64,000 bases of DNA. It comes from Acidobacteria bacterium SCN 69-37. GTDB taxonomy: Bacteria > Acidobacteriota > Vicinamibacteria > Vicinamibacterales > SCN-69-37. The translations under genes and the position numbers were made by a program. Where the stretch lies: the NCBI GenBank assembly GCA_001724025.1, contig MEDJ01000022.1:1-64000 (forward strand), read 5' to 3'. This document shows positions 32,787-61,479 of the stretch, one piece after another; the first letter of the stretch is position 1, and each line of letters begins with the position of its first letter. The notes beneath the pieces are model-generated. The model saw only the letters and a program-made list of their open reading frames with translations, ran no database searches and was not told the DNA's origin.

Positions 32787-33539
32787 TCACGCCCGATACC
32801 GCACCACGAGCGCCGTCACATTGTCCCGGGCACGCTGCTCCAGCACGGCCGCGACGAGCGCCTCGGCCGCCGCCTCGGCATCCGGGTGGCTCGACAGCAG
32901 CGCGGCCGCCTGCTCGTCGGAGATCTCGCCATGCAGGCCATCGGTGCAGAACAGCAGGCGCTCACCATCGCGGAGCGTCCGCTCCCCCACCTCGACCTCG
33001 ACCTGCTCGCGGGCCCCGATGACATTGGTGAGCACGTGGCGCATCGGGTGCCGCTCACCCGGTGCGAGCGCCCCCGCGCTCTGCAGCGTCGCGACCCACG
33101 AATCGTCGGTCGTCAACTGCGTGATCGTGCCATCGATGATCGAATAGATCCGACTGTCGCCGACGCTCACATAGACGCACTCGGCCCCATCGACGAGACC
33201 GGCCACCACGGTAGTCCCCATGCCCGAGAGATCGTCACGGCTCTCGGCCGTCCGGAACACGCGCCTGTTGGCCAGGCGCACGGCCGTGATCAACCGGTTC
33301 GCGTGGAACGTGAGGTTGCGATCGATGCCGTACGGCCACGTCACGTCGTCGCCTTCGTGCGTGCGGCGCATGAACGCCATGATCGTCTCGACGGCGAGCG
33401 CGGCGGCGACCTCGCCGGCGTTGTGCCCGCCCATACCATCGGCCACGACGAATACGCCCAGGGCGGAATCGGCGTCGTACCGATCTTCGTTGGTCTTCCT
33501 GACGCGTCCGGGATGTGTTACGCCGTGTGCGGTCAACAT
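32787..33539 (-). CDS. PP2C-family protein phosphatase
   Basis: Metal-dependent Ser/Thr phosphatase, 250 residues, no membrane helix. Motifs in order: GRVRKTNEDRYDAD (metal Asp), VFVVADGMGGHNAGEVAA, SVGDSRIYSI, LLFCTDGLHGE, and RDNVTALVV (final metal Asp). It should reverse the action of the kinase encoded 15 bp upstream, giving a kinase-phosphatase pair as in the Stp/PknB arrangement. AGAGGA about 8 nt before ATG 33539 is a fair ribosome site. Part of the lanthipeptide operon by orientation and spacing. Confidence 0.94.
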   Translation of the reverse strand: MLTAHGVTHPGRVRKTNEDRYDADSALGVFVVADGMGGHNAGEVAAALAVETIMAFMRRTHEGDDVTWPYGIDRNLTFHANRLITAVRLANRRVFRTAESRDDLSGMGTTVVAGLVDGAECVYVSVGDSRIYSIIDGTITQLTTDDSWVATLQSAGALAPGERHPMRHVLTNVIGAREQVEVEVGERTLRDGERLLFCTDGLHGEISDEQAAALLSSHPDAEAAAEALVAAVLEQRARDNVTALVVRYRA

Positions 33540-33554: not shown

Positions 33555-36500
33555 CTACCGGCGATCGGTGATGATCCAGGCATTCCCGTTCTTCCTCAGC
33601 GTGAGCGTGATTGCCGTCCGGCTCTCCTGGCGCGAGCCGGATCGGGGCTGAACCGCGTGGACCATCTGCGCGCGAACCGTGGCCCCGCTCCCGTCGAGCG
33701 CCACCGTGATGGCACCGAGCGTCATCGACTGGCTGGCGTAGCCGGCGAAGGCCTTACGCAGCGCCGGGGCGTTCACCGACGGGAAGACCCGTACCACGGC
33801 GTCCACGTCGAGGCTGTTGTAGCCCTGCCGATACCGATCCACCACTTGACGAATGGCGCTCTCGTCCGCCTGCCGGGTGTCGACGACGACCTGCTGACTG
33901 TTCTGCCGATCGGCGTCGCGCTGCCGCGCCGCGTCCTGCTCCTGCTGACGCCGCAGATCCTCGGCCGCGCGCCGGCCGTCGGTCGTGGCGGTACCGAACC
34001 GCGCCTCGGCTGTCAGAAAGAGCTGCGCGGACTCGACGGCGCTCGCCTGCTGTCTCGCCTGCGCGAGGACGTTCTCCGCATCGAGAAAACTCGCCAGCGA
34101 CGTGGCCGGGGGACCGATGCCCTGCGCCTGGCCGCGCGCGGCTGTCGCGCGCCGCTCGGCATCCTGACGGATCGCGGCCGCCAGGTTGCCGAAGCGGGTA
34201 TCGCCGGCACGCATCTTCACGCCCGCCTCGATGCGCTCGATGGCGCTGCGCAGGTCGCCGCCGTCGCGCAGCCGTTCCGCGTCGGCGAACAGGTCGTCCA
34301 GCCGGCGATCCTGGGCAGACATCTCGGACGGCCGCTGCGGGGGCGCCTGTGGCGGCACGTCCGCAACCGGCGACGGCACGCTCGCTGACGGCGCCGGCTC
34401 GGGCTCCGCCGGACTCCCGGCCGGCGATTCCGCGGTCCCGGCGGGATTCGAGTCGACGCCTTGCACCGACAGGTTCCCGGCCGTGACATCGGGTGGTGCC
34501 GGAGTGTCGTCCACGGTTGGCGTCTCGCCCGCTCCACCACCGAGGAGCACGAACGCCAGGATGGCGACGACCACGAGTGCGGCAGCGCCGCCGTACTTGA
34601 TCGTATGGCTCAGCCCGCCGGCGCCCGAGCCCGTCGCGTGCGTGTCCGCGAACGCGTCGGTCAGCGCGGCCCCTGCCATCGCGGACGCCGGTCGCGAGGG
34701 ACCGGACGACGGTCCGCTCTCGCGCGCACGCGACGCCTTCGACGGCGCCGTCGTCGGCAGCGCCGGCTGCGGCACAGCCATGGTCGGCTGCTCCTGTACG
34801 GGTGCCGGCGTGGATGCAACGGGTGGAGGCACCTCGCGCCTCAACAGGATGGTGCGATCGTCAGTGGCAACGTCTGGCGAGTCGGCGGGCTGCTGCGCTT
34901 CGGCCGCAGCCGCGGCAGCGGCGGCCTGGTGCCGCGCGGCTTCATCGGCGTGTGTCCGGGCTTGCGCCTCGGCCTGTCGCCTGGTCTCTTCCTCGATCTG
35001 TTGTCGGCTGGCTTCTGCTGCGGCGTGCGCCGCCGCGCGCTGCGCGTCGGCTTCGTACGCGGTAAAGGCGACTAACAGATCCGCGTTGTCGGGGTCGCGT
35101 GCGAGGGCCGGCCGGAGCACCGCCATGGCCGCCTCCGGTCCGCCTTTCGTCCGCCTGGCTGCCTTGATCGCGTCGGCTGCCGCACGCGCGCGCTCCCGGG
35201 CCGCGCGGACTTCGGCATCCCGGCGCGCGCGATCCGCCGCTTCGGCGGCCTGACGCTCGGCGCGCTCGGCCGCCGCACGCTCTTCTTCCGCCAGCCGCAC
35301 GGCTTCCGCCCGCAGACGTTCGAGCGTCTGCGCCACCAGCGGGTGTCCGGGCTGGAACGCGGCAAGCGTGGCCACGCCGTCATCGCGCCGGCCGCTGGCG
35401 AACTGCTGCTCGGCGCCGGCAATCACCTCGCGCACGCGCGCTTCGAGTGCCTCGCGCTGTCGCGCCTCTTCCTGCCGGGCGACCGCATCCTCGAACGCCC
35501 GGCGGACGTCGGCCAGTCGCGGCTCGGACGGATCGATCTCCGCAGCGCGCGCGAGCAGCGACGTCACCGCGGCGAAATCGCCGCTGGCGATGCCGCCGGA
35601 TGCCGCATCGAGCGCGGCTTCGACCTGCTGGGCGTCGATGAGCGCCCGGGCCCGCTCGACGAGACTGTGCGCCGGCGCCTGGTCGGGATCGAGCAGCAGC
35701 ACCTGCTCGGCCGCTGCGATCGCCCCCTCGCCGTCGTGCTCGGCGAGCCTGGCCTCGGCAGCCGCCAGGTGCACCTGGATCTGCTCGGCCCGCCGCCTGG
35801 CGAGTCCCTCGAGATCGGCCTTCCGCCGCGATCCCGACGATGGCGAGGGCGTCGGCCGCGGCTCGCCGGTTCCACCGGTTTCCGGCGCCACGCCCAGCAC
35901 ACGCGACGATTCGGACGTCGAGAGCCGCAGGCGCGCCTGCGCGATGTCCTGGCGCATGGCCGCCAGGTCCGGATACCGCCGGTCCGGTTCCTTTTCGAGC
36001 GCACACTCGACGATGCGCACGATGTCGGCGTCGATGTCCTGCACGATTGCCGGCAGTGGCTCGGGCTGGCCCGACAGGATCTTGTTGAGGATCCCGGCCA
36101 TCAACCCGCCGGGAAACGCCTGCCGGTACGACAGCAGTTCGTAGAAGACGGCGCCGACGGCGAACAGATCGCTGCGCAGATCGACGGACTGGCCGCTCAC
36201 CTGCTCGGGCGACATGTAGTTGAGCGTGCCGATCAGCATGCCCGCCTGGGTCATGCTCGACGACTCGGCCGCGCGGGCGATGCCGAAGTCGAGGATCTTC
36301 AACGACCCGTCGGCATCGATCATCAGGTTGGCGGGCTTGACATCGCGATGGATGATGCCGCGACGGTGCGCAAAGCCCAGGCCGTCGCAGAGCGCCTCCA
36401 TCAGTTCCAGCTTGCGGACCAGCGGCATCGCGACGTTGCCGCGCACGACCTCGGCAAGCGTCTGCCCCTGGATGTACTCCATGGCGATGAAGGGCTGCCC

Positions 36501-36734
36501 GTCGTGCTCGCCCACGTCGAAGATCGTGACGATGTTCGGGTGTCGCAGGCGTGCGGCCGCGCGCGCCTCGCGCGCGAACCGTTCACGCAGGTCGTCGTCA
36601 TCGTCGCGGAGCAGCTTGATGGCGAGTTGGCGATCGAGCTTCGGATCGAGCGCGAGGAACAACGCGCCCATGCCGCCACGACCGATCGCTCCGAGGATCT
36701 CGTAGCGGCCGATGGTGGTCGGCTGGCTGCTCAC
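33555..36734 (-). CDS. Large transmembrane Ser/Thr kinase with NTF2-like C-terminus
   Basis: 1059 residues. Kinase domain about 10-270 (GRGGMGALF, AIKLL, IIHRDVKPANLM, DFGIAR). Residues about 300-640 are a very long Ala/Glu/Arg-rich coiled coil with helical repeats. One membrane helix at about 710-732 (AALVVVAILAFVLLGG). Outside: Pro-rich linker, helical segment, and a C-terminal domain (about 950-1059, ESAIRQVVDRYRQGYNSLDVDAVVRVFPS) with an NTF2/SnoaL-like pattern that may bind a ligand. GTG 36734 overlaps the upstream cNMP-FHA stop as GTGA. The PP2C gene follows. Likely kinase for the FHA proteins of the exporter; unproven. Confidence 0.92.
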   Translation of the reverse strand: MSSQPTTIGRYEILGAIGRGGMGALFLALDPKLDRQLAIKLLRDDDDDLRERFAREARAAARLRHPNIVTIFDVGEHDGQPFIAMEYIQGQTLAEVVRGNVAMPLVRKLELMEALCDGLGFAHRRGIIHRDVKPANLMIDADGSLKILDFGIARAAESSSMTQAGMLIGTLNYMSPEQVSGQSVDLRSDLFAVGAVFYELLSYRQAFPGGLMAGILNKILSGQPEPLPAIVQDIDADIVRIVECALEKEPDRRYPDLAAMRQDIAQARLRLSTSESSRVLGVAPETGGTGEPRPTPSPSSGSRRKADLEGLARRRAEQIQVHLAAAEARLAEHDGEGAIAAAEQVLLLDPDQAPAHSLVERARALIDAQQVEAALDAASGGIASGDFAAVTSLLARAAEIDPSEPRLADVRRAFEDAVARQEEARQREALEARVREVIAGAEQQFASGRRDDGVATLAAFQPGHPLVAQTLERLRAEAVRLAEEERAAAERAERQAAEAADRARRDAEVRAARERARAAADAIKAARRTKGGPEAAMAVLRPALARDPDNADLLVAFTAYEADAQRAAAHAAAEASRQQIEEETRRQAEAQARTHADEAARHQAAAAAAAAEAQQPADSPDVATDDRTILLRREVPPPVASTPAPVQEQPTMAVPQPALPTTAPSKASRARESGPSSGPSRPASAMAGAALTDAFADTHATGSGAGGLSHTIKYGGAAALVVVAILAFVLLGGGAGETPTVDDTPAPPDVTAGNLSVQGVDSNPAGTAESPAGSPAEPEPAPSASVPSPVADVPPQAPPQRPSEMSAQDRRLDDLFADAERLRDGGDLRSAIERIEAGVKMRAGDTRFGNLAAAIRQDAERRATAARGQAQGIGPPATSLASFLDAENVLAQARQQASAVESAQLFLTAEARFGTATTDGRRAAEDLRRQQEQDAARQRDADRQNSQQVVVDTRQADESAIRQVVDRYRQGYNSLDVDAVVRVFPSVNAPALRKAFAGYASQSMTLGAITVALDGSGATVRAQMVHAVQPRSGSRQESRTAITLTLRKNGNAWIITDRR

Positions 36735-37483
36735 GCCAGGCCCCCGCGAGGGGCCCCGCGGTACACGGTCCTGACGACGCCGAACTGCACCTGGTCGCCG
36801 TCGCGCAGTTCGATCTCGTCATCAGCCGCCAGACGGGATCCGTTGACGAACGTGCCGTTGCGCCCCCTGGCCTCGCGAACGAACACACGATCGCCCCGCC
36901 TGGCGAGCGTCGCGTGCTGCCGGCTGAGCGTGCGCTGCCCGTCGAGCGCCGTGAGATCGATCGCGGGCACGAACCCCGCACTCGCATCGCGTCGTCCGAC
37001 GATGGCCGCGTCGAGATCGGCGATCGGAAACTCCTCGCCCGTCTCGGCCGCCACGAGCCTGGGGTCACCACCGGCCGCGACGGGATCGCCCTCGCGATCC
37101 GCCGTCGTGCGGGACTGTGCGCGCAGCGTCGCGAGATGGCGCGCAGTCTGCTGCAGCATCGCCACGGCCACCTGCGGCGCCTCGGCCACGACGCGATCGA
37201 AGGCGGCACGATCGAGCCGAATCAGCCGCACCTCGGTCGCAGCCCGCGCCGAGACGTCTCGCGGGCCATCCTCGAACAGCGCCGATTCGCCGAAGATGCC
37301 GCCACTGCCGATCGTCGTCAACACCCGATCGCCAGCCGCCAGCAGATCGACGTGGCCATCCCTGACGATGCACACGTCGGTGCCCGTGTCGCCCTCGCGG
37401 AAGACGAACTCCCCGGCCGCCAGCGTGGTGGTGAAGCGGCCGAGATCGTCGAGGTCGGGCCCTGCCGCGTCCGTACCTGCCAT
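36731..37483 (-). CDS. Cyclic-nucleotide-binding plus FHA domain protein
   Basis: 250 residues. About 12-115 is a cNMP-binding/Crp-like domain (LAAGEFVFREGDTGTDVCIVRDG ... GGIFGESALFEDGPRDVSARA, with the phosphate-binding GESALFEDGPRDVSA cassette). About 150-245 is an FHA domain (RTLSRQHATL, ARGRNGTFVNGSRL). There is no DNA-binding or catalytic part, so it looks like an adaptor joining a nucleotide signal to phospho-Thr recognition. It starts 3 bp after the outer-membrane gene stop and overlaps the kinase start. Confidence 0.92.
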   Translation of the reverse strand: MAGTDAAGPDLDDLGRFTTTLAAGEFVFREGDTGTDVCIVRDGHVDLLAAGDRVLTTIGSGGIFGESALFEDGPRDVSARAATEVRLIRLDRAAFDRVVAEAPQVAVAMLQQTARHLATLRAQSRTTADREGDPVAAGGDPRLVAAETGEEFPIADLDAAIVGRRDASAGFVPAIDLTALDGQRTLSRQHATLARRGDRVFVREARGRNGTFVNGSRLAADDEIELRDGDQVQFGVVRTVYRGAPRGGLA

Positions 37484-37486
37484 CGA

Positions 37487-38851
37487 TCAGTAGCTCCTGG
37501 TCAGGGAAAACACCGCCGTCGGCCCCGGCTGCAGGCCGTCCCTGCCGATCGGGAACACCACGCTCATCTGCCCGAGCAGATCGCCGGGCAGCGACAGCCG
37601 GACGCCGCCGGCCCCGAGCGTCTGCGTCACCGTGCGCGCGTCGCCGGCCACGAGCGCCCCCTCGGCGAGGAACGTCCCGCCGCCTACGCCGCGGCCCGGG
37701 AACTCGAGGGTCGTGGTGGAGAGCGTGCGCAGACCGTCGATGCGGCGCGCGGCCACGTCGAAGACGAGCGCCACGTATCGCGAGATCCCCGCGTCGACAC
37801 CGGCCGACACGCCCACCTCGTCCGGCACGCGACGATCCACGTCACCGCCGAGCTTCGCACTCAGATCGCCATCGGACCAGGTGTAGTCGACCCGCACGCG
37901 CGGCACGACACGGCCGATCGCGCCGGACACGGCCACGTACGGCCGCACCTGCCAGGCACCGATCCCGATGAAGTCGTCGACGCGGCCCGTCGGCACGCGC
38001 ACGTCCGCGCCCGCGGCCACGGCGCCGGCCAGCCGCACCTTGGCGCGCACCAGGATGTCGCCGACGCCGCGCCCCTCGCTGCTGCCGTGGCACTGGAGCG
38101 CGTCGGGATCGAAGCCGGCCTCGAGTTCCGAGCAGTATCGTGGCAGCGTGCGATTGGCGCCGCCGATCGGATCGAACTGGTGCTCGGTCTGTCCCGGATA
38201 GATGGACGATCCCGTGCGGATGATCCGGCTCGTCACACGTGCGTCGGCGTGCATCTGGACGAACGGGACGATGACGCCGAGATCCACGCGATCGCTCAGC
38301 CCGTACGTGAGCGCCAGCGAGGCGACCTTGCGGTTGAGCCGCAGCGAAACGACCTGCTGCATCAGATCCCTGTCGGCCGCGGTGCCGGTGACGGCCGCGT
38401 GCGGCAGGAAGAGGTTCATGTCGCTCGCGCGCAGATCGATGTCATCGAGCGTATCGAACGTGGTGGCCTGGTAGCCCAGCGCGAACGCCCAGTTCCCGGC
38501 GCCAATCGTCAGCGCCGTTTCGGCACCGCCACCGGCAGCGGCCGGCAGCGATCGGCCCTCGGCCATCGGGGTCGCGGCGGCCAGCGCGCTCGGGCCGAAC
38601 GCGAAGCCACCGGCCTGCAGCGCCATCACGCGATTGAGTTCGTACACGCCGGCGAGTGTCGCGGGATCGGGCGCGAAGTGCCCGCGGTGATCGCCCACGG
38701 TGCCCGGCGCAACGACCGCCGCCTCGGCCGAGAGACTCGGCAGCAATTCCGCCAGGGGCGTCGTCGATTGCGCCGTCGCCGTGGCCGCGAAGGCCAGCAC
38801 CATCGTGCCGGCGGCCACGAACCTCGCTGATGTCCTGTTCCTGTTGTTCAT
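37487..38851 (-). CDS. Outer-membrane beta-barrel-like protein (paralogue 2)
   Basis: 454 residues. Signal peptide FVAAGTMVLAFAATATAQS; beta-strand-rich throughout; ends with an aromatic Tyr (FSLTRSY), as barrel proteins do. Shares several blocks with the protein at 31332-32627. Two Cys (about 245-265) may form a loop disulfide. ATG 38851 overlaps the LanM stop as ATGA, which ties its translation directly to the synthetase. It could be an export or immunity component, or an unrelated channel; nothing in the sequence decides this. Confidence 0.75.
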   Translation of the reverse strand: MNNRNRTSARFVAAGTMVLAFAATATAQSTTPLAELLPSLSAEAAVVAPGTVGDHRGHFAPDPATLAGVYELNRVMALQAGGFAFGPSALAAATPMAEGRSLPAAAGGGAETALTIGAGNWAFALGYQATTFDTLDDIDLRASDMNLFLPHAAVTGTAADRDLMQQVVSLRLNRKVASLALTYGLSDRVDLGVIVPFVQMHADARVTSRIIRTGSSIYPGQTEHQFDPIGGANRTLPRYCSELEAGFDPDALQCHGSSEGRGVGDILVRAKVRLAGAVAAGADVRVPTGRVDDFIGIGAWQVRPYVAVSGAIGRVVPRVRVDYTWSDGDLSAKLGGDVDRRVPDEVGVSAGVDAGISRYVALVFDVAARRIDGLRTLSTTTLEFPGRGVGGGTFLAEGALVAGDARTVTQTLGAGGVRLSLPGDLLGQMSVVFPIGRDGLQPGPTAVFSLTRSY

Positions 38852-41800
38852 GATGTGCACTCCGTGCCGACCGTGGCCGGGGACAGCGCCGCCGGACGGT
38901 GGGCACGGTGTCCGGTGCCATGCACCCCGGTGGAACAATAACGCAGAGTCGCCCGCGGCGGGTCGAACGCCGCGATCGAGGGCAGCGTGGCCGGCGCCGC
39001 CACGCGCAACAACGTGTAACCGATGCCCGACAGGCCCTGGAAGAACCCCGGATCGAACACGCGATAGTCCGTGCCCACACCGCTCAGACGGAAGTGTCCC
39101 CGTCGGCGCGCGCGCTGTACCACGCGCTGCGCCAGGGCGCGGGCCGCATCGATGGCCTCACCGCGGCCCGTCTGCGCGGCCACGTTCAGCAGAACCTCCG
39201 CGCGGCCGAGCGTGCCGCAGCAGACGTGATCCGCCTGCGCCGGCTGCCACCCCGCGATCGCCCGCGCACCGGATTCGATGCCGGCCGTCAGCGCCGCCGA
39301 AGGCCGAATCGCGGCTGCCGAGAGCGACGCCAGCACGATGCCCGGCGCGCCGTGACACCAGCCGTGCATCACGCCACCGACGGCCGCGCCGTCACCTGTC
39401 GTCGCGATCGGCCAGTTCGCCGCGCTCGCGAGGTACTGGCGTCGCACGAAGCCGAAGGCCTGCCTCGCCCGATGGGCGAATGCCGGCTCGCCGGTGACGG
39501 CCGCGAGCCGGGCCAGCGCCGCGGCCATGCCCGCGGCCCCGTGGGCAAACCCCAGGAGCCGGACGCCGTCGTCCGACGGCCAGGCTCCGTCGCGTTGTCG
39601 CGCGACAATCTGCCTGCCGCACGCGACGGCGCGGTCGAGCACGCGATCGTCGCTCGTGACGTCGTACAGCGCGAGCAGCGCGAGCACGGCGCCGGCGCTG
39701 CCATCGATCACGTCGACGGGCCTGTCGACCGCCAGTCGCGCGGGCAGAGCGACGGCCAGGCTCGTTGCGATCTCGAGCCAGTCATCCTCGCCGGTCAGCG
39801 CCGCGAGCAGGGTGGTGCCGTAGACGATGGCGCCGAGGCCGTTGCCGCCGCCGAAGGACTCGCCGGGCCACGAGGTCGCGCCGTGCCTGACCGCGTGCGC
39901 GCGAAGCGGGGCGCGCGCATCGCGCGCCGCGTCGGCCCACTCGACGTCGCCCGTCGCGCGCGCCAGTGCGGCCAGGAACAACGCCGGACCGAGACTGCCG
40001 TCGTACAGGTGGTGATCGCGCCAGCCGGGACCACCGACAATCGGTCGATAGCGCCAGACGAGGCCACCGCCGGTAATGCGCTCGGCCCGCGCGAGCAGCA
40101 CGCGCGCCACCCACAATGCCGCCTCGCCGGGCTCGGACGAACCGGCCGCGGGCGACGATGGCACCGCGCCGCATGCGTCGTATCTCGACTCCACGGACTC
40201 GGACAACGCGCGACGCAGGATCGCGATCTGCGCGGCGAGATCGGCGAAGGACATCGCGTGCAGCCGATTGGCGGCCGCCCCGAGACCCGACCGCGCGAAG
40301 AACCCGCGCGCCAGGATCCGGTCGCCGGCCATCCCGTCGATCCCGTCGGCCTCGACAGTGAAATACGGCACGTCGAGCGCGAGCAGCGCACGACGTTCTT
40401 CCACGGCCACGGGCCAGAGCGCCGGGCGCTCCACCGACCTCGCGTAGCCGCGATGGAGCACGTCGACGGCCGCGCTGGCCGTGACGCCGTCGCCCTGATA
40501 TTTCGGTGTCGCGAGCAGGTGCGCGAGCATCGCGTACTGGTTCGTCGGTCGCGGCAGCACGCGGACGTGGCACGCCGCCAGCGCGGCCAGCGGTCCGCCG
40601 GGGGCGAGCAGGTCGTCGCGCCGCAGGAGCAGCAGCCGATACGCCTGCGAGAACCCGGCCACCAGCGCGCCCACGTACGCACCGGGCCGCTGCACGTCGT
40701 CGCCCACGATCACCTGGTGCGTGCCTGTCGTCGCGAAGGTCGAGACCTCTTCGACGCGAAGATCGGCGGTGCCGCACGCCTTCCACACGCGCGTCGCAAA
40801 CGGCAGCGTGCCTGTCGTCGCACCGCGCAGGCCGCCGGCATCGTGCGGGTCGCCGTCGGGCGTGAGATCGACGAGCGACAGCAACCCTGTTGCCAGGCAC
40901 CAGGCGGACGACGATGCGACACCGTCGTGTCCATGGCCCCGGGCAGCGGTCTGCGTGTCGGGCTGGAGCAGCAGTTCGAGATCGACGAGCACCGGACCGT
41001 CGCTGGTGGCGACCACGTTCTCGCGGTGCAGATCGCGCGCCCCGAGTGCGGCGGTCACGCACATCAGCGCGCCCGCCTGCTGAAAATACACGGCCGCCTC
41101 GGCGCGCGATGCCCGTCGTGCGTGCGCCGCATACGCCACCCAGCCATACGCGCCGCGGTCGCACGCGACCGGCGCGGGCAGCGCGTGATCGAGCCCGGTA
41201 TTCAGCCAGTGCACCAGGTCGCCGAACACCTGTTCGATCCGCACGCTGCGCGGCTTGTAGACCACGCGGAGACCCGAAGCGAAGGTGAGTGCGTGCACGC
41301 GGCGGCGGCCGTTGTGCGGATCCGACAGCGCGAGGCGGATCGCGACGAGCGGACCAGGATCGGTGCCGCCGCCGAAGGTCCCGGCCAGGATCCCGCGATC
41401 GGTATCGAGCCGCACGACGAACTCTGCCGTGGCGGCCGTCCACAGCTCCATGACCATGGCCAGTTGCCTGGCAAGTGCGGCGTAGCGAATCAGGAAATCA
41501 ATGAGGCCGCCGTCGAGCATGGCCTCGACGAACGACACGTAGGGCGTCGTCCGATCGGGGGTATCCGGCCCGGCGGGTGTTGTCGGAGCGATGTGTGTCC
41601 GGAACGACTCGAACATTGCGAGGTCGCCGTAGCGGCCGATCTCGTGTGCGAGCTGCTCGTCGAAGGCCTGGAACACCGCCGGATCGACGACATCCGCGCT
41701 GCCGTGTGGCAGCCGGGCCATCAACTCGCGCCGCGCGGCACGTCGTGCAGGTTCCCACACCGCGTCGAAGGGACGTCCCGTGTCGGACCTCTCGCGATCG

Positions 41801-42129
41801 AGCCTCCGCCCGGCACGGAAATCGGCCAGGACATCGTCGGCCTCGGCGCACAGACGATCGATCCAGATGATCCAGTCGGTGGCGACGTTCAGGGTACGTT
41901 CGAAATCCGGTGAGACGACGCGTGCGGCCGAAGCGGGATCGAGTCCGTCCCAGCTCAGTCGTCGCGCGAACGCGGCCGGATCGTTCGGGGCGAATGCCTG
42001 CTGCCAACGCGCCATCCGATCGGCGGCATCTGCCGGCACGCCCCCGTCGTCACCACGGGTCTGACGCCGCTCGTCGATCGTGGCGGCGCGCGTGGCAATC
42101 ACCAGGCGGGCAGACGGCGAGAGGTGCAT
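38848..42129 (-). CDS. lanM: Class II lanthipeptide synthetase LanM, CCG type
   Basis: Bifunctional enzyme: phosphorylates and dehydrates Ser/Thr of the precursor, then adds Cys thiols to form (methyl)lanthionine rings. 1093 residues. Dehydratase domain about 130-560 (VVYKPRSVRIEQVFGDLVHWLN, GARDLHRENVV, VLVDLELLLQP). LanC-like cyclase about 690-1060 with GGGNGLGAIVYG, GFAHGAAGMAAAL, HGWCHGAPGI (zinc Cys near 921) and CCGTLGRAE near 973. The second zinc motif is Cys-Cys-Gly rather than Cys-His-Gly, as in the promiscuous ProcM-type enzymes. I choose ATG 42129 because the alternative 42186 would place a perfect hairpin inside the gene. Its stop overlaps the next gene as ATGA. Confidence 0.93.
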   Translation of the reverse strand: MHLSPSARLVIATRAATIDERRQTRGDDGGVPADAADRMARWQQAFAPNDPAAFARRLSWDGLDPASAARVVSPDFERTLNVATDWIIWIDRLCAEADDVLADFRAGRRLDRERSDTGRPFDAVWEPARRAARRELMARLPHGSADVVDPAVFQAFDEQLAHEIGRYGDLAMFESFRTHIAPTTPAGPDTPDRTTPYVSFVEAMLDGGLIDFLIRYAALARQLAMVMELWTAATAEFVVRLDTDRGILAGTFGGGTDPGPLVAIRLALSDPHNGRRRVHALTFASGLRVVYKPRSVRIEQVFGDLVHWLNTGLDHALPAPVACDRGAYGWVAYAAHARRASRAEAAVYFQQAGALMCVTAALGARDLHRENVVATSDGPVLVDLELLLQPDTQTAARGHGHDGVASSSAWCLATGLLSLVDLTPDGDPHDAGGLRGATTGTLPFATRVWKACGTADLRVEEVSTFATTGTHQVIVGDDVQRPGAYVGALVAGFSQAYRLLLLRRDDLLAPGGPLAALAACHVRVLPRPTNQYAMLAHLLATPKYQGDGVTASAAVDVLHRGYARSVERPALWPVAVEERRALLALDVPYFTVEADGIDGMAGDRILARGFFARSGLGAAANRLHAMSFADLAAQIAILRRALSESVESRYDACGAVPSSPAAGSSEPGEAALWVARVLLARAERITGGGLVWRYRPIVGGPGWRDHHLYDGSLGPALFLAALARATGDVEWADAARDARAPLRAHAVRHGATSWPGESFGGGNGLGAIVYGTTLLAALTGEDDWLEIATSLAVALPARLAVDRPVDVIDGSAGAVLALLALYDVTSDDRVLDRAVACGRQIVARQRDGAWPSDDGVRLLGFAHGAAGMAAALARLAAVTGEPAFAHRARQAFGFVRRQYLASAANWPIATTGDGAAVGGVMHGWCHGAPGIVLASLSAAAIRPSAALTAGIESGARAIAGWQPAQADHVCCGTLGRAEVLLNVAAQTGRGEAIDAARALAQRVVQRARRRGHFRLSGVGTDYRVFDPGFFQGLSGIGYTLLRVAAPATLPSIAAFDPPRATLRYCSTGVHGTGHRAHRPAALSPATVGTECTS

Positions 42130-42159
42130 GGCAGCAGGAGACGACGCGAAAGACGACGA

Positions 42160-42182
42160 GGCGGGATCGCGACGATCCCGCC
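42160..42182 (-). terminator. Hairpin between precursor and lanM (probable attenuator)
   Basis: GGCGGGATCG and CGATCCCGCC form a perfect 10-bp stem with a 3-nt loop. It lies 16 nt after the precursor stop and 30 nt before the lanM ATG. No T-run, so it likely lowers rather than stops read-through, or protects precursor mRNA, giving more peptide than enzyme. Confidence 0.6.
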
Positions 42183-42198
42183 CCATCTGCCGCGTGGA

Positions 42199-42531
42199 TC
42201 AGAGGTTGATCTGCGTGACGGTGTTGCCGGCCGCGGCGCCACCGAGCGCGAGCGCCGTGCACTCGGCCTGGATGTCCTGCTTGCCGCCAGCGACCTTCTC
42301 GAGGTCCGCATCGCTCAGCTCGCCCTCGGGCGCGGCGTACGGAATCACCACGTGCACCGTGTCGGCCGTGTCGGCCACGGCAACGACCTTCGTCCCGCCG
42401 AGCTTCGTGTTGAGCTGCTTCTCGATCGTGCCCTTCGGATCCTTCAGCAGCGCATCGCGATACTTCGGGTTCTCCGCCGCGAACTTGCCCACCAGATCCT
42501 GCACTTCACCACGCGTCATCGCCTGCGACAT
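42199..42531 (-). CDS. NHLP-leader lanthipeptide precursor
   Basis: 110 residues. Residues 1-83 form a nitrile-hydratase-alpha-like leader (NHLP family): KFAAENPKYRDALLKDPKG, DTADTVHVVIPY, then ELSDADLEKVAGG ending in the double-Gly cleavage site for a C39 peptidase. The 27-residue core (84-110) begins KQDIQ and ends QINL. It has a single Cys (91), Thr at 92, 104 and 106, and no Ser; nothing dehydratable lies before the Cys. At most one ring can form, and only in the Cys-to-Thr direction. GAGAGG about 7 nt before ATG 42531 supports this start; the longer frame crosses the sigma-54 promoter. Confidence 0.93.
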   Translation of the reverse strand: MSQAMTRGEVQDLVGKFAAENPKYRDALLKDPKGTIEKQLNTKLGGTKVVAVADTADTVHVVIPYAAPEGELSDADLEKVAGGKQDIQAECTALALGGAAAGNTVTQINL

Positions 42532-42621: not shown

Positions 42622-42637
42622 AGCAACTGGCGGGCCA
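42622..42637 (-). promoter_or_regulatory. Sigma-54 promoter of the precursor/lanM operon
   Basis: The minus strand from 42638 reads TTGGCCCGCCAGTTGCT, against the consensus YTGGCACGrNNNTTGCW: only the A and R positions differ. GG (42636-42635) and GC (42624-42623) have the required 12-bp offset. Transcription would start near 42611, giving about 80 nt of leader before ATG 42531. The bEBP gene next door makes this more credible. Confidence 0.75.
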
Positions 42638-42710
42638 ACCATGCCGTTTTCCGCAACACCCGGTATTTCTGCGACTTGCCGCGATCGACAGTCAGGCGCG
42701 CACGTCCCGG

Positions 42711-42747
42711 ATGGAGCCATGGCTCCATTTGGTAGAGACGGAGCTCC
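42711..42747. promoter_or_regulatory. Likely enhancer (UAS) for the bEBP
   Basis: ATGGAGCCATGGCTCCAT (42711-42728) is an 18-bp perfect palindrome centred about 108 bp upstream of the predicted sigma-54 start. A second palindrome GGAGCTCC (42740-42747) shares the TGGAGC half-site and is centred 24 bp away. Distance and symmetry fit tandem sites for a dimeric enhancer-binding protein. With the sigma-54 promoter this accounts for the 303-bp gap at 42532-42834. Confidence 0.65.
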
Positions 42748-42834
42748 AACTGCCGCGCACACCCTCTGGTGCGATCGACGGGCGTGACGTTTCGTCGATC
42801 GAGCCGCCGGCGACGCGCCGGCGCGGCGCGCACC

Positions 42835-43914
42835 TCAGGGCTTCAGATCGTGATGACGCAGAAAGTCCATGAACTTCTGGTAATCCGATGACGGCAGATT
42901 GAAGAGCGAGAGGATGCGCCGGTAGTTGCCCGTCGTCTCGCTCAGTCCCCGCCGCACGACGGTCTTGACCTGCGATCGATTGAGATCGCGTTCCATGAAC
43001 GGCTGCCCGACGACCGACCAGAAGTCCTCGCCGCCGTGCACGATGCGCTCGTACCGCGCGTCGATCGTGTCGGCCCGATCCTGCGGCGAGTCCTCGAGCA
43101 GCGCGCTGAAGTCGTCGGGCTCGATCAATTCGCCGTCGGCCATGCCGTAGCCGGTCGAGACCACGGCAATCAGCTGGCGCACGTTGCCGGGCCAGCGATT
43201 CTTTTCGAGCAGCGCCAGCGATGCCGCGGAAAACCGCTTCGATACGCCGTACTTGCGCGCCAGACGGAACAGCGTGTGATCGGCGATCAAGCGCCAGTCG
43301 TCCTCGCGATCGCGCAGCGCCGGCAGTTCCACGAGAAAGTGTCGGAGCCGGAAGAACAGATCGTACCGGAACTGGTTGATCATGACCAGTTCGTTCAGGT
43401 CGCGATTGGTGGCCGACACCACGCGGACGTCGGCACGCCGCGATCCGGACGCCGCCCCCACCGGACGGAATTCACCGGTGGCGAGCGCGCGCAGGAGCAG
43501 CGCCTGCGCGGCTGTCGGCAGGTCACCGATCTCGTCGAGGAAGATGACGCCGCCATCGGCTTCCTCGAACGCACCACGTCGATCGGCCGTCGCGCCGGTG
43601 AAACTCCCCTTGAGGTGCCCGAACAACTCACTCACCGTGAGGTTGCCTTCCTGGTACTGCGGGCAGTTCACGGTGACGTACGGTTTGGTGCGCGGACACC
43701 CGAGCAGGTAGAGCGCGTGCGCGAAATGCTCTTTCCCGACGCCGCTCTCGCCCGTAATCAGCACCGGCTCGCGATAGCGCGCCATCTTCTCGACCTGGCG
43801 GATCGCCTTCAGGAAGCGCGTCGACTGCCCCACCATTTCGAGGGCGCGTTCGGGTCCATGCCGCTCGATCGAGAGCGCGCGGAGGCGGACGGCTGGCTCA
43901 CTCAGAAAGGACAC
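42835..43914 (-). CDS. Sigma-54-dependent activator (bEBP) without receiver domain
   Basis: AAA+ activator that remodels sigma-54 RNA polymerase. 359 residues. AAA+ core about 30-260: Walker A GESGVGKE, the sigma-54 contact loop GSFTGA (normally GAFTGA), Walker B GGVIFLDEIGDL, sensor/arginine region LFFRLRHFLVELPALRDR and WPGNVRQL. No N-terminal receiver, GAF or PAS domain, so control must come from level, the core itself, or a partner. The C-terminal 60 residues (NRSQVKTVVRRGLSETTGNYRRILSLFNLP) are helical but not a typical Fis motif. GTG 43914 has AGGAG 5 nt upstream. It probably drives the promoter at 42622-42637. Confidence 0.9.
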   Translation of the reverse strand: MSFLSEPAVRLRALSIERHGPERALEMVGQSTRFLKAIRQVEKMARYREPVLITGESGVGKEHFAHALYLLGCPRTKPYVTVNCPQYQEGNLTVSELFGHLKGSFTGATADRRGAFEEADGGVIFLDEIGDLPTAAQALLLRALATGEFRPVGAASGSRRADVRVVSATNRDLNELVMINQFRYDLFFRLRHFLVELPALRDREDDWRLIADHTLFRLARKYGVSKRFSAASLALLEKNRWPGNVRQLIAVVSTGYGMADGELIEPDDFSALLEDSPQDRADTIDARYERIVHGGEDFWSVVGQPFMERDLNRSQVKTVVRRGLSETTGNYRRILSLFNLPSSDYQKFMDFLRHHDLKP

Positions 43915-44666: not shown

Positions 44667-46577
44667 ATGACACGCATGCCCGGGCGTTCGCGCCTCTTCG
44701 TACTGGCCGTTCCGATCGTGGCCGTGGCCGTGACCGCCACGCCGGCCGCGGCGCAGTCGGCGCCACCCGCGCCGGGCCAGGCGGCGCCCGTCGTCACCTT
44801 TCCTGCACAGGGCCTGACGCTCGACGAGGCGATTGCGACGACGCTGCAGCACGATCCCGCGCTGCAGCAGAGCCGCGTCGACGTGCAGCGGCGGCAGGGC
44901 CTCGTGCAGCAGTTCCGCGGCGCGTTCGATTCCACGCTGTTCATCACCGCGCAGTACACGCATCGCACGCAGGAAATGAGCGAGAGCTCGAAAGACACCG
45001 AACGTCGCAAGCGCGACGATCTCGACGAGGTCATCGCGAACCGCGAGAAGAACCTCGCCGAAGTGAGCCGGCTCTCGGATCTGCTCACCGCCATCCGCAA
45101 CAATCCGTCGGATGGCAGCGTGATCGACGAAGTGGCGCGCTTCAGCCCGGCCACGGCCGCCACGCTGCGCATGCTCGATGGCCTGATCGCGCAGGCGGCG
45201 CCGGCGCAGCGGCAGGAATTCTCGGCGATTCGATCGGACTTCCTGTCGTCGGCGCTGCTCGGCTTCGAGGACGAACTCGAGGCGGCGCGCACCGACTACG
45301 ACCGGCTGCGGCAGGATCGCGCGAACCTCGGGGACGCCCCCATCGACGAAGTCTTCATCGATGCGACGGGCAGCGCGACGCTCTCGAAGCTCTATCGATC
45401 GGGCATCACGTTCGCACCGTTCTTCGACTCGACCTTCAACGGCACCAACTTCAAGGGCAAGCCGCGCGCGGCGGAATACGGCGGCAAGGGCATCTCCGAC
45501 GTCCTGCAGTTCCGCGCGGGCGTGAACGTGACGCTGCCGCTGCTGCGCGGGCGCGGCGCGCGATCGGTGGCGGCGGCCGAACGGGCGGCGGCCATCGACG
45601 TCGAAGCCGGCCAGCTCATCCTCGATCACCAGCAGGCGGCCAGTGTGCTGCGGACCGTGCAGGCGTACTGGAACCTGCGCGCGGCGCAGGACGCGGTCAC
45701 TATCGCGCGGCAGTCCGTCGAGTTCCAGACGACCCTGACGGGGCTGACGAACCAGATCATCGGCGTGGGCGACCTGCCGCAGGTGGAACTGGCCCGCGCG
45801 CGGGCCAGCGAAGCCCGCGCCCGCGCGCAGGCGGAGGATGCCGAACGTCGCCTGCACGAGGCGCGCGTCGCTCTGGCCGATGCGATGGGGGTGGCCGTGA
45901 CCGGCGATCCGGCCACGCTGCCGACGGCCGCCGATGCCTTCCCACAGGGCGGTGCTCCCGGCGCGGTGGCTGGTTTGATCGACCAGGCCGTGGGGCAGCG
46001 AGCGGATCTGAAGGCGGCCACGCGCTCGATCGACGCGAGCACGACGCTCGTCGACGCGGCGCGCGACGACCTGCGGCCGCGCCTGGACCTGCAGGTGGGC
46101 ACGTGGTTCACGGCCCTCGGCGAAGGCTCCGGTCCGAAGGCGCTCGATCGCTGGGTCGGGCCGAGCGCGGGCGTCGGGTTCCAGTACGAGAAACCGCTCG
46201 GCAACAACCAGGCGGAAGGCTTACTCGCGCAACGCGAGGCTGACACGGCCCTGCGGCAGATCGCGCAGCGCGATCTCGATCGCCGCATCCGGCTCTCGGT
46301 GGTCGAATCGGCAGGCACGCTCGAACAGGCCGCCGCGCGCGTGGCCCAGGCCGAAGCGGCTGTCGGCTTCTACGAGACGACAGTGAACGCCGAACTGCAG
46401 CGCTTCCGCACCGGGGACGTCACGCTGCTCGACACGGTCATCACGCAGCAGCAGCAGATCGACGCCCAACTGGCGCTGGTGCTGGCGCGGCAGGAACTGG
46501 CGCAGCGGCTGGCGCAGCTGCAGTTCCAGACCGGCACGCTCGTGACGCTGCCGTCGGCGGCGGGAGCGAGGGACTAG
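44667..46577 (+). CDS. TolC-like outer-membrane efflux protein, enlarged (1)
   Basis: 636 residues, against about 450-490 for TolC. Signal peptide ends in TPAAAQS. OEP features: QGLTLDEAIATTLQHDPALQQSRVDVQRRQGLVQQ, VTLPLLRGRGARSVAAAERAA, and RFRTGDVTLLDTVITQQQQIDAQLALVLARQELAQRLAQLQ near the end. A charged insertion of about 150 residues (from about 95) interrupts the first half and may extend the periplasmic tunnel. AGGAG precedes the ATG. Expected to form the outer-membrane channel for the NHLM exporter. Overlaps the next gene by 1 bp. Confidence 0.88.
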   Translation: MTRMPGRSRLFVLAVPIVAVAVTATPAAAQSAPPAPGQAAPVVTFPAQGLTLDEAIATTLQHDPALQQSRVDVQRRQGLVQQFRGAFDSTLFITAQYTHRTQEMSESSKDTERRKRDDLDEVIANREKNLAEVSRLSDLLTAIRNNPSDGSVIDEVARFSPATAATLRMLDGLIAQAAPAQRQEFSAIRSDFLSSALLGFEDELEAARTDYDRLRQDRANLGDAPIDEVFIDATGSATLSKLYRSGITFAPFFDSTFNGTNFKGKPRAAEYGGKGISDVLQFRAGVNVTLPLLRGRGARSVAAAERAAAIDVEAGQLILDHQQAASVLRTVQAYWNLRAAQDAVTIARQSVEFQTTLTGLTNQIIGVGDLPQVELARARASEARARAQAEDAERRLHEARVALADAMGVAVTGDPATLPTAADAFPQGGAPGAVAGLIDQAVGQRADLKAATRSIDASTTLVDAARDDLRPRLDLQVGTWFTALGEGSGPKALDRWVGPSAGVGFQYEKPLGNNQAEGLLAQREADTALRQIAQRDLDRRIRLSVVESAGTLEQAAARVAQAEAAVGFYETTVNAELQRFRTGDVTLLDTVITQQQQIDAQLALVLARQELAQRLAQLQFQTGTLVTLPSAAGARD

Positions 46578-48796
46578 TGGCCGCTCCCGCTGCACTCATC
46601 GGCTGGCGCGCGGCCTGTGCCGCGGCCTGCCTTGGTTTCGCCATTCCTGCGGCGGCGCAGGTAGTCCGGGTCCCCGAAGCCGAGACCCTGGCCGCGGCAC
46701 AGGAGGCCCCGGCCCGCTCGACGCAGGCCACGATTGGCCTGTCGGACGCGGTCGCGCTCGCCCTGCGACACAATCCGGCCCTCAAGGAACAGGCCGAGTC
46801 GCTGCGCGCCGCCACGGGGCGGCTGCAGCAGGCGCGTGGACCGTTCGACCCGACACTGCGCGTGCTGCCGTCGGCCACGTTCGATCTCAAGGAAATGGCG
46901 CCGTTCCTCAAGGCGCGCGAGATCAGCAAGCGCGAGACGATCCGGATCATCGCCGACAACTTCACGATCCTGACCCAGGCCCTGCGCGAGATGATCGATG
47001 TCACCTCGACGACGCCGCCGCGGTGTCCGTCGGGCCTGCAGCTGTCGAACGGCCAGATCGACCTGACGCGCGACAACCTCGATCTCTCGGGCCGCGACGC
47101 TACGGAGCGGGCGCTGCTCGGCGTCGACACGGCACTGCAGTCGGTCGTCGTGGAACTGGCCGACGGCCTCTCGATCAACCTTGCCGACATCTGCCGCAGC
47201 GAACCGCGCGAGCTGATTTCGCCTGAACTGCTGGTCGGCACCTTCCGGCGGATCGATCAGTCGGGCGGGCTCGGGCTCGAGGGCATTCTCCAGAGCGTGG
47301 CGCAGATCCCGCGCGAGACGCGCATCCTCCAGGAGGAAATCACGCGAACGGTGGCGCAGCGTGCGCGGCTGGCGCTCGACAGGCTCGGTCCGGTGGCCGA
47401 GGACGAGCTGACGCGCAACATCACGATCGACGTGAGCCTGTCGAAGCTGTTCCGTGGCGGCTTCCAGGTCAGCGGCGATTACCAGCTCCAGAGCCAGGAA
47501 CAGAATTTCGTCGGGAAGCCGCTCGATCCGACGTTCGGCGGCTTCGACACGCCGCCGCAGTTCTACTCGAGTGCGGCCGGCACGCTGACCGTGCCGCTCG
47601 GCCGCGGCCGCGGATCGGCGGCCACGGCGGCCTCCGAGCGCGCGGCGCGCCGAATCGTCGAGGGCGAGCGCGAGCAGTTCCGCCACGACGTCTCCGAGGA
47701 AGTGTTCCGCACGGTCCTCGCCTACCTGAATCTCGTCGCCGCGCAGCAGACGGTCGAGCAGCTCGAAGCCTCGGCCGGCCGGCAGCAGCGGATCCTCGAG
47801 CTGTCCGAAGCCCGCGTGAAGGCAGGCGATCTGGCGCAGGCCGATCTGGCACGGGTGCGCGCGAGTGCGGCCGGCACCGATGGGTCGCTCGCGCAGGCCC
47901 GCGCGGCACTCGTCTCGGCGCGCATCGCCCTGGCCGAGCAGATCGGCCTGCGAGTCGAGTCGCTCGGCGATGCCCCGCTCGCGGCCGACGCGTTCGCCGC
48001 CGTCCAGGCGGCCGACACCGACGCCGACGCGCTCATCGCGCGGGCCCTGTCTGCCCGGCACGATCTGCGTGCGGCCTCGTCGCGCCGCGACGCCGCCGCC
48101 GCGCTGGCCGCCGGCGCGCGCGCCAACGCCCGGCCGCGCCTCGACCTGACGCTGACCGGCGGCATCTTCAATCTCGAGGACAGCCCGTTCTTCAAGTTCC
48201 TGCCCGACGAGCGGCTGCCGATCATCTCGGCCACGTCAGGGATCCCGACGACGCCGGTCACCGGGACACCGGTGCCCCCGCTCGATCCGGTCCGGTACTA
48301 CTCGCCGGTGGGCTACGGCCGCGCCATCGCGAATCGGCACACGCCGTTCGCCACCGTGGCGATTACGTTCGAGCTGCCGTTCGGTAACCACACGGCGCGC
48401 GGTCGCGCGGCCCAGGCCGAGGCGACCCACACGTCGAGCGCCATCCAGTCCGAGGATCTCCGCCGCAGCATCGGCGAGAACGTCGTCGAACTGACGCAGT
48501 CGCTGCGGCGTGCGGCGACGTCGCTCACCGAGTGGGACGCGGCCGTGGCCCGCGGGGGCGAAACGCTCGACGGCCGGCTCCGCATGTTCCAGACCGGCGA
48601 CACGACGCTGATTGACGTGCTGCTGACCGAGGACTCGCTGACCGGCGATTACCTGCAGCAGATCCGGCAGCGCCAGGCCTACCTGAGCGCCCTGGCCCGG
48701 CTGCGGCTCGAAGTCGGCGACCTGGTCACCGTGGACGGCGCCGGCGCACCAACGGGCACGCTGCAGTTCGATCCGTCCGGGTTGACGGGAAGATGA
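46577..48796 (+). CDS. TolC-like outer-membrane efflux protein, enlarged (2)
   Basis: 739 residues, with signal peptide LGFAIPAAAQV. OEP pattern: IGLSDAVALALRHNPALKEQAESLRAATGRLQQA, LTVPLGRGRGSAATAASERAA, RMFQTGDTTLIDVLLTEDSLTGDYLQQIRQRQAYLSALARLRLEVG. A long insertion (about 100-290) corresponds to that of the preceding protein, so the two are diverged duplicates and may build a mixed trimer. Starts with GTG in TAGTG, sharing one base with the upstream stop. A 147-bp gap with a hairpin separates it from the HlyD-like gene. Confidence 0.88.
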   Translation: MAAPAALIGWRAACAAACLGFAIPAAAQVVRVPEAETLAAAQEAPARSTQATIGLSDAVALALRHNPALKEQAESLRAATGRLQQARGPFDPTLRVLPSATFDLKEMAPFLKAREISKRETIRIIADNFTILTQALREMIDVTSTTPPRCPSGLQLSNGQIDLTRDNLDLSGRDATERALLGVDTALQSVVVELADGLSINLADICRSEPRELISPELLVGTFRRIDQSGGLGLEGILQSVAQIPRETRILQEEITRTVAQRARLALDRLGPVAEDELTRNITIDVSLSKLFRGGFQVSGDYQLQSQEQNFVGKPLDPTFGGFDTPPQFYSSAAGTLTVPLGRGRGSAATAASERAARRIVEGEREQFRHDVSEEVFRTVLAYLNLVAAQQTVEQLEASAGRQQRILELSEARVKAGDLAQADLARVRASAAGTDGSLAQARAALVSARIALAEQIGLRVESLGDAPLAADAFAAVQAADTDADALIARALSARHDLRAASSRRDAAAALAAGARANARPRLDLTLTGGIFNLEDSPFFKFLPDERLPIISATSGIPTTPVTGTPVPPLDPVRYYSPVGYGRAIANRHTPFATVAITFELPFGNHTARGRAAQAEATHTSSAIQSEDLRRSIGENVVELTQSLRRAATSLTEWDAAVARGGETLDGRLRMFQTGDTTLIDVLLTEDSLTGDYLQQIRQRQAYLSALARLRLEVGDLVTVDGAGAPTGTLQFDPSGLTGR

Positions 48797-48817
48797 GTGG
48801 AAGGCGACGAGGCGACG

Positions 48818-48885
48818 TGGGGCGACGAAATGCCAGAGACGCATGGCACGCACCGGAAATCGTTCACCGTCGCTTCGTCGCCCCA
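48818..48885. repeat. 12-bp inverted repeat in the export operon
   Basis: TGGGGCGACGAA (48818-48829) and TTCGTCGCCCCA (48874-48885) are perfectly complementary around 44 nt. It lies between the second TolC-like gene and the HlyD-like gene and may reduce read-through between channel and inner-membrane genes. No promoter is obvious after it. Confidence 0.6.
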
Positions 48886-48943
48886 TCACCACAGAGCCGC
48901 AAGTCGCCATCAACACTTCTGAGCCCGATTCAAGGAACCACGC

Positions 48944-50122
48944 ATGGCCGATGATTCCCTGTTCCGCAAGGCCGCCCTCGACAAGCTGGCGTCGCCCGAG
49001 CGGCTCGACGTCCTGATGCAGGTGACGTCGCCGAAAGGCTGGATTGCCCTGCTGACCATCGCCGCGCTGCTCGTCGGCGTCGTCGTCTGGAGCGTCGTCG
49101 GCACGCTGCCGGAACGGATCGACGGGCAGGGCATGCTCACCGGCGAAGGCGGCCTGCGGCAGATCCGGGCGTCTGGCGACGGTCGCCTGACGCGGCTCAC
49201 GCTCACGGTCAACCAGATGGTGAGTCCCGACCAGGTCGTCGGGGAAATCTCGGCCGTCGACATGGGCCAGGCGGTTCAGTCCGCGTCGAACGATTACAAC
49301 GCGCAGTTGCAGGCCCACCAGGCCGCGCTCGCCTCCGAACAGATCACGATCAGCAACCTGGGTATCCAGCGCGACAGGGCGCAGGCCAACGTCACCAAGG
49401 CGGACGCCAACCTCGCGCAGCGACGCGAGAACCTCGCGGCCGGGATCGGCACGGCCAACCAGGTACGGGCGGCCGAGGCCGAGGTCGACGGTTACATGAA
49501 GGAAGTCGCCAGCTACGAGCAGCAGATCCGGACCGTGCGCGAACAGGGCCGGCTGCGGCTCATCAACCTGCAGCGGCTGCAGCAGCAGGTCGCGAGCACG
49601 GAAGCGACCGTGGCCGCGCGGGCCACGATCAGCAGCACGGTGTCGGGCAAGGTCGTGTCGATTGCCAAGCAGGTCGGCGACCTGGTGACCGTCGGCGATC
49701 TGATTGCCGAGGTCGAGTCGGGCAGCGAGGAAGCCAGCACGCTGGAGATCGTGGCGTTCGTGTCGTCACGGACGGGCCAGCGCGTGCGGCCCGGCCACCC
49801 GGCGCAGATCACCGTCAACGGCGTGCCGCGCGAGGAATACGGGTTCCTCCGCGGCGAGGTGAAGTTCGTGTCGCAGTATCCGGAGAGCCCGGCAACGATT
49901 GCGCGGGTGATGGGCGACGGGCGCATCTCGGAAGCGAGTTACCGCGTGGTCATCGCCCCGACACCGGACGCGTCGACGCCCACCGGGTATGCCTGGTCGA
50001 CGGGCCAGGGGCCCAATGCGCCGATCTCGGGCGGCACGGGAACGACCGTCGCGGTCGAGGTCGACCAGCGCGCGCCCATCAGCATGGTGCTGCCGATCAT
50101 CCGCGGCGCCATCGGCGGATAG
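48944..50122 (+). CDS. NHLM secretion adaptor (HlyD-like)
   Basis: Membrane-fusion protein joining the inner-membrane exporter to the outer-membrane channel. 392 residues: cytoplasmic N-terminus, one membrane helix (GWIALLTIAALLVGVVVWSVVG, about 26-48), lipoyl-like half, long coiled-coil hairpin (about 105-220, QAHQAALASEQITISNLGIQRDRAQANV), second lipoyl half (AATVAARATISSTVSGKVVSIAKQVGDLVTVGD) and a beta-barrel part. It fits the NHLM bacteriocin system secretion protein family. Followed after 9 bp by the peptidase-ABC exporter gene. Confidence 0.9.
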   Translation: MADDSLFRKAALDKLASPERLDVLMQVTSPKGWIALLTIAALLVGVVVWSVVGTLPERIDGQGMLTGEGGLRQIRASGDGRLTRLTLTVNQMVSPDQVVGEISAVDMGQAVQSASNDYNAQLQAHQAALASEQITISNLGIQRDRAQANVTKADANLAQRRENLAAGIGTANQVRAAEAEVDGYMKEVASYEQQIRTVREQGRLRLINLQRLQQQVASTEATVAARATISSTVSGKVVSIAKQVGDLVTVGDLIAEVESGSEEASTLEIVAFVSSRTGQRVRPGHPAQITVNGVPREEYGFLRGEVKFVSQYPESPATIARVMGDGRISEASYRVVIAPTPDASTPTGYAWSTGQGPNAPISGGTGTTVAVEVDQRAPISMVLPIIRGAIGG

Positions 50123-50131
50123 GACACTCAC

Positions 50132-52342
<2,211 letters not shown>

Positions 52343-52343
52343 C

Positions 52344-59682: not shown

Positions 59683-59719
59683 GAATCAGCGGAAGAGCAC
59701 GATCGCACGAGGCCGCCGC

Positions 59720-60259: not shown

Positions 60260-60262
60260 CGA

Positions 60263-61420: not shown

Positions 61421-61479
61421 GCTGTTCCCCTCGCGCCTCCGCACGGGGGCGAAGGTGCCGATCGGTGACGATCCCGGGC

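Follow-up and report, generated by a model that had tools for sequence, protein, structure and literature searches.

Analysis of the 64,000-nucleotide stretch of contig MEDJ01000022.1 (the window) revealed a set of minus-strand genes for a class II lanthipeptide. The precursor gene (42199-42531) encodes a peptide of 110 amino acids with an NHLP (nitrile-hydratase-like) leader ending in VAGG, followed by the core KQDIQAECTALALGGAAAGNTVTQINL, which contains one cysteine and several threonines. The precursor matched TIGR03793 over its full length (E = 1.4e-9) with 37.7 bits, which is under the cut-off of 50.9; this cut-off was passed by the orthologous precursors of G033, G364, G371, G385, G392, G419, G425, and G429. 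The adjoining gene (38848-42186) encodes LanM, a class II lanthipeptide synthetase of 1112 amino acids (TIGR03897, 599 bits; cut-off, 304) that carries a DUF4135 domain (PF13575) and a LanC-like domain (PF05147). The next gene (37487-38851) overlaps that of LanM by 4 bp and encodes a protein that is putatively exported and, judging by its sequence, possibly forms an outer-membrane beta-barrel. The product of this gene matched no family, and a homologue is positioned after LanM in G047. Domain matches identified the following product (36731-37483) as a protein with cyclic-nucleotide-binding and FHA domains (cNMP-FHA). Its gene overlaps by 4 bp that of a Ser/Thr protein kinase of 1059 amino acids (33555-36734), and a PP2C-type Ser/Thr phosphatase gene (32787-33539) is located 15 bp after the kinase gene. 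Given the gaps of -4 to 15 bp downstream of LanM, the peptide genes may share a single transcript with this signalling module.

A gene encoding a bEBP of 359 amino acids (42835-43914, minus strand) is positioned upstream of the precursor gene in the same orientation. The best start is a GTG codon at 43914, which is preceded by a Shine-Dalgarno-like AGGAGAG; the longest open reading frame begins at 44004. The deduced protein contains an AAA+ sigma-54 activation domain (Sigma54_activat, PF00158; E = 5.6e-55) with a GSFTGA loop and a C-terminal five-helix domain ending in FMDFLRHHDLKP. Since only about 25 residues precede the AAA+ domain, the protein has no sensor domain. The AAA+ motifs are kept and GSFTGA is invariant in 12 bEBP orthologues; GSFTGA is listed among the GAFTGA variants compatible with activation (PMC4641369). 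When the whole protein was modelled, the AAA+ part came out poorly (mean pLDDT, 67.9), and the structure search was therefore confined to the C-terminal domain, which is conserved and was modelled as five helices with a pLDDT of 86.6. This search placed Fis and the DNA-binding domains of NtrC1 and NtrC4 among the best matches, all of them weak and none at E <= 0.001.

Inspection of the region between these genes revealed, on the minus strand, the order bEBP gene (stop at 42835), two palindromic sites, a sigma-54 -24/-12 promoter element, and the precursor start (42531). The promoter element TTGGCCCGCCAGTTGCT (42638-42622, minus strand) was identified by pattern match and by its conservation before 12/12 orthologous precursor genes. 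A preliminary description of the window had called this element near-consensus with correct spacing, and comparison with YTGGCMCGN4TTGCW revealed zero mismatches, with the GG and GC dinucleotides correctly spaced; the remaining matches to this pattern within the 64 kb have two mismatches each. The element is located about 90 bp before the precursor gene with the NHLP leader. Transcription is predicted to start near 42611, which would give a 5' leader of about 80 nt. Genome-wide motif counts were made by pattern searches. A single copy of TTGGCNCGN4TTGCW is present in the 4.43-Mb genome, and the reversed control pattern likewise has one, which makes the motif alone weak evidence. The possibility raised earlier that the genome lacks rpoN was ruled out, as an open frame of 484 amino acids with a PF04552 match was found at C1:89933 (E = 2.6e-64). 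Identity of this RpoN to that of uncultured "Acidobacteria sp. RBC068" reached 70%; against the remaining named genomes in the comparison, it stayed below 50% across the main stretch of the alignment, which makes Acidobacteriota the likely phylum.

The first palindromic site, putative enhancer (UAS) dyad 1 (42711-42728; no strand assigned), is ATGGAGCCATGGCTCCAT, a perfect palindrome of 18 bp whose core TGGAGC-N4-GCTCCA is complete at 12/12 positions. The same dyad is present before 11/12 orthologous precursor genes. As originally described, the centre of the palindrome is located about 108 bp upstream of the predicted start near 42611, and its core begins 89 bp ahead of the first base of the -24 element. 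ATGGAGCCATGGCTCCAT is a single-copy sequence in the genome, even when one mismatch is allowed in the arms; the inner 12-base dyad TGGAGC-N4-GCTCCA has five perfect genomic copies, so that the dyad by itself is not unique. A second, related palindrome had also been described. It does exist, as GGAGCTCC (42740-42747), but comparison among loci indicates that it is better read as part of dyad 2, an imperfect site TGGAGC-TCCG-TCTCTA (42748-42733, minus strand) with 10/12 positions. The two dyads are 21 bp apart from start to start, about two helical turns. This comparison refines the putative enhancer unit to TGGAGC-N4-GCTCCA, usually paired. The bEBP gene ends 88 bp from these sites (stop at 42835 versus 42747), and all distances given in the preliminary description checked out.

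A divergent NHLP export operon is located on the plus strand (44667-56354). It encodes two TolC-type outer-membrane proteins, HlyD (TIGR03794), the ABC1 peptidase/exporter (TIGR03796), and ABC2 (TIGR03797), and all three TIGR families were matched over cut-off. No -24/-12 element of at least 11/13 positions was found before this operon. A DUF7005 protein is encoded beside the NHLM exporter (56401-57543); in G480 (L209, 8518-10515), DUF7005 shares a frame with an O-methyltransferase-type domain, and this frame adjoins the gene of the bEBP with the divergent sequence. Genes for FHA/phosphatase, anti-sigma-antagonist, FHA, and Ser/Thr kinase proteins are clustered beyond the exporter operon, at 58051-63573. 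Elsewhere in the window (24559-25023), there is a gene like that of a pyrimidine dimer DNA glycosylase (PF03013).

A profile built from three bEBP sequences was searched against 396 genomes of the phylum and 162 genomes of the order. The search revealed a distinct clade of bEBPs in 12 genomes, set apart from the remaining bEBPs by a large gap in score (E <= 8e-131 versus >= 1.4e-97). The neighbourhood was readable in 10 of the 12 genomes, with seven families represented (f1, f4, f11, f55, f81, f83, and f89). An NHLP precursor gene was found next to or near the bEBP gene in 10/10 readable loci and LanM in 9/10; in the locus without LanM (G364), the last precursor gene is cut off by the contig end. 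The cNMP-FHA gene was present in 9/10 loci, either after LanM or adjoining the bEBP gene, in many cases in divergent orientation to it. In distant relatives, the bEBP was 52 to 65% identical, the order of the elements was the same, and their spacing was similar. No other DNA-binding regulator common to the loci was recognised, and the neighbouring proteins that were examined included neither a histidine kinase nor a regulator with a receiver domain. In loci outside the order of the window, a HAD-hydrolase-type gene between the bEBP and precursor genes and a GNAT acetyltransferase-type gene after LanM are recurrent (L214, 7466-9133; L215, 9966-11447; L212, 2158-3186; L215, 14637-15713).

Several members of the clade deviated from this arrangement. 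The G459 bEBP matched only to residue 304, and no precursor was found there; the G480 bEBP was more divergent (48% identity) and is encoded near an NHLM exporter subunit. In G385 (L212), the bEBP, the precursor, and a -24/-12 element (11/13) were present, LanM matched in two separate pieces, and no recognisable dyad was found upstream of the precursor gene; this locus is possibly a decaying cluster. The same-genus genome G001 was left out of the comparison, as its contig stops 128 bp short of LanM and the bEBP is represented only by a fragment (86% identity) on another contig. A bEBP search of genome contigs returned only generic bEBPs with 33 to 47% identity, encoded without LanM or NHLP neighbours.

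Conservation of both control elements in related genomes had been proposed as a check, and both were found to be conserved. The -24/-12 element was present upstream of 12/12 precursor genes from 10 genomes, with GG and GC at identical spacing throughout, and the dyad was present upstream of 11/12. For scoring, 13 positions of the -24/-12 element were compared on both strands of the ten loci, amounting to 430 kb of strand sequence. Among 19 sites with at least 11/13 positions, 12 were the precursor promoters; at 12/13 or more, 8/8 sites were precursor promoters. The dyad TGGAGC-N4-GCTCCA or a variant of it (9 to 12 of the 12 positions) was located 76 to 124 bp upstream in 11/12 precursor promoters, and in most of them (G419, G392b, G364, G371, G425, and G429) the dyads were paired at a distance of 20 to 22 or 32 bp. 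A joint scan of 13 loci for dyad plus -24/-12 element gave 12 matches, of which 11 were precursor promoters, where 1.6 would be expected by chance. In comparison with Markov shuffles of the same upstream DNA, the dyad reached p <= 0.0005 in 9/12 promoters; the dyads of G033 (10/12, p = 0.019) and G047 (9/12, p ~0.09) were weak, and G385 had none. Since the motif was defined from the same sequences, with that of the window first, these p-values serve as a guide and not as a formal test. The arms of the dyad were conserved and the N4 was variable, as would be expected where a dimeric protein binds. Two precursor genes are present in each of G364 and G392, and every copy has its own -24/-12 element and dyad. 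The distances from dyad to promoter were suggestive of helical phasing over all sites, without significance when lineages were counted once. A phylum-wide search with the exact composite pattern was noisy: it matched 39 genomes, many of them at recurrent sites with no relation to the cassette, and its reversed control also matched in many genomes. The composite pattern still picked the cassette loci of G000, G364, G419, and G425.

Four LanM-linked NHLP precursors of genus g47 (G084, G093, G079, and G073) also have a -24/-12 element, located about 120 bp before the leader. In these promoters (L097, L098, L099, and L100), the element is ATGGCACGCGGATTGCT or similar. None of the four contains a TGGAGC dyad, and no recognisable bEBP was found within the 16 to 17 kb examined at these loci. 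These results indicate that the dyad goes with the bEBP clade described here and that the use of sigma-54 does not strictly require this bEBP. Lanthipeptides may be under sigma-54 control beyond the bEBP clade, with g47 as a second sigma-54-linked group on the basis of its promoter sequences. The -24/-12 element was absent from most NHLP genes not linked to LanM (one exception, L141, with 11/13), and most of these also had no dyad. It was likewise not found in the Nif11-leader LanM cluster of G055 or before the LanM-linked NHLP genes of G319 and G446. The last two cases indicate that sigma-54 control is recurrent but not general.

Taken together, the locus very probably represents a sigma-54-controlled class II lanthipeptide operon for a peptide with an NHLP (proteusin-type) leader, in which a dedicated bEBP would bind paired enhancers. 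The complete sigma-54 control region proposed in the preliminary description is thus supported, as every element named there recurs in distant relatives. We infer the start site, the binding, the operon transcript, and the signal from the DNA sequence. RNA polymerase with sigma-54, a sigma factor that stays silent until an activator acts on it, would bind the -24/-12 element at 42638-42622. The bEBP, whose gene is located immediately upstream, would use its C-terminal domain to bind the paired TGGAGC-N4-GCTCCA dyads (42711-42748), assemble an AAA+ ring, and open the promoter through the GSFTGA loop. Transcription would then proceed from the precursor gene through the genes for LanM, the putative outer-membrane protein, cNMP-FHA, and the Ser/Thr kinase to that for the PP2C phosphatase.

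The alternative that best withstands the data, although unlikely, is that the promoter depends on sigma-54 while another regulator, e.g., a repressor, uses the dyads as its operator, and the bEBP acts from elsewhere or on other genes. The five genomic copies of the dyad arms, the bEBP without a dyad in G385, and the sigma-54-type promoters of g47 without a neighbouring bEBP would fit this reading, and DNA binding by the C-terminal domain is a prediction. Against it, the dyads are located at a classic enhancer distance and paired about two or three helical turns apart, they were found to accompany this bEBP clade and were absent from the promoters of g47, and no other DNA-binding regulator was recognised across the loci, the cNMP-FHA protein matching no DNA-binding family. 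It is very improbable that the -24/-12 element is a chance match and that the operon is driven by a promoter of the sigma-70 family. Chance alone would give roughly one strict match per 4.4 Mb, as the single reversed match also illustrates, and weight-matrix predictions of sigma-54 promoters yield many false positives (PMC3665592); however, the element recurs before 12/12 orthologous precursor genes amid flanking DNA that has diverged, and both rpoN and a bEBP gene are present. Least probable of all is that the palindromes act as RNA hairpins or as a terminator of the bEBP gene, since, although a stem of 6 to 7 bp with a 4-nt loop could form and the palindrome comes after the bEBP gene in the window and some other loci, no T-run follows, the arms are conserved by sequence and not by compensatory pairing, and the sites track the precursor promoter despite an intervening gene (G033, G419, G392, G364a, G371, and G425); this candidate was rejected.

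Sensor-less bEBPs are usually governed in trans, and without a sensor domain the activity of the bEBP studied here is probably set in trans by a partner. The most likely signal partner, by inference only, is the conserved cNMP-FHA protein, accompanied in the window by the kinase/phosphatase pair. The readable precursor cores (window, 42199-42531; L094, L095, and L210 to L216) each have a single cysteine, and the C-terminal pattern VEINASLF/VIQLSL/TVTQINL is common to many of them across families. Such a cross-family core pattern would be unusual for fast-evolving antibiotics and may point to a possible role as a signal or in the envelope. A more speculative extension, which we regard as conceivable but rather doubtful, is a phylum-wide cassette that combines the sensor-less bEBP clade and its cNMP-FHA partner, paired enhancers with sigma-54, and a single-cysteine proteusin-type lanthipeptide with the cross-family core pattern. 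In such a cassette, cyclic-nucleotide or Ser/Thr-phosphorylation signals would gate the production of the peptide, maybe a signal or envelope component and not a fast-evolving antibiotic.

If sigma-54 control by the dedicated bEBP is true, a phylum of the Gram-negative type appears to use sigma-54 and an activator dedicated to lanthipeptide genes. This would explain the laboratory silence of such clusters and suggests that they could be switched on via expression of the bEBP and rpoN. The conserved dyad provides a search pattern for further clusters. No report of sigma-54 control of lanthipeptides was found in the open-access literature searched, going by titles and abstracts; subscription journals were mostly outside this search, and novelty is therefore provisional. 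A 2025 comparison of sigma-54 regulons (PMC12316311) contains no words beginning with lanthi-, lanti-, or Acidobacteri-.

Among known systems, PspF is a sensor-less bEBP with paired enhancer sites, and PspF structures align to the AAA+ part of the bEBP described here. Both are short bEBPs without an N-terminal sensor domain, with tandem upstream sites, a sigma-54 target, and probably governance in trans. The present bEBP differs in its targets, in having GSFTGA instead of GAFTGA, in its C-terminal domain, and in having cNMP-FHA and not PspA as its neighbour. The PEP-CTERM-box response regulator (TIGR02915) is a bEBP dedicated to one exported-protein system and likewise accompanies one target-gene family. 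Unlike that regulator, which has a receiver domain, the bEBP of the window scored 200 bits against TIGR02915, under the cut-off of 502.6, and its predicted targets are lanthipeptide genes. The promoter type is the same as that proposed for some natural-product clusters; those proposals are mostly weight-matrix predictions for PKS/NRPS clusters, whereas a RiPP system with a dedicated, conserved activator-enhancer pair is described here. The NHLP leader, LanM, HlyD, and the two NHLM-family ABC subunits are shared with the known NHLP/NHLM export systems with LanM, from which the present locus is distinguished by the sigma-54/bEBP control, the in-operon module of cNMP-FHA, kinase, and phosphatase, and the single-cysteine cores. 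Regulation of lanthipeptides is known mainly from two-component systems of Gram-positive bacteria (PMC10663231). As in the two-component control of Gram-positive lantibiotics, e.g., nisin (PMC10663231), the regulator is encoded with the lanthipeptide genes, but activation here would proceed through sigma-54. The best reading of the system is sigma-54/bEBP control of the ordinary type that serves lanthipeptide genes and has been kept across the phylum, i.e., a new regulon of a known kind.
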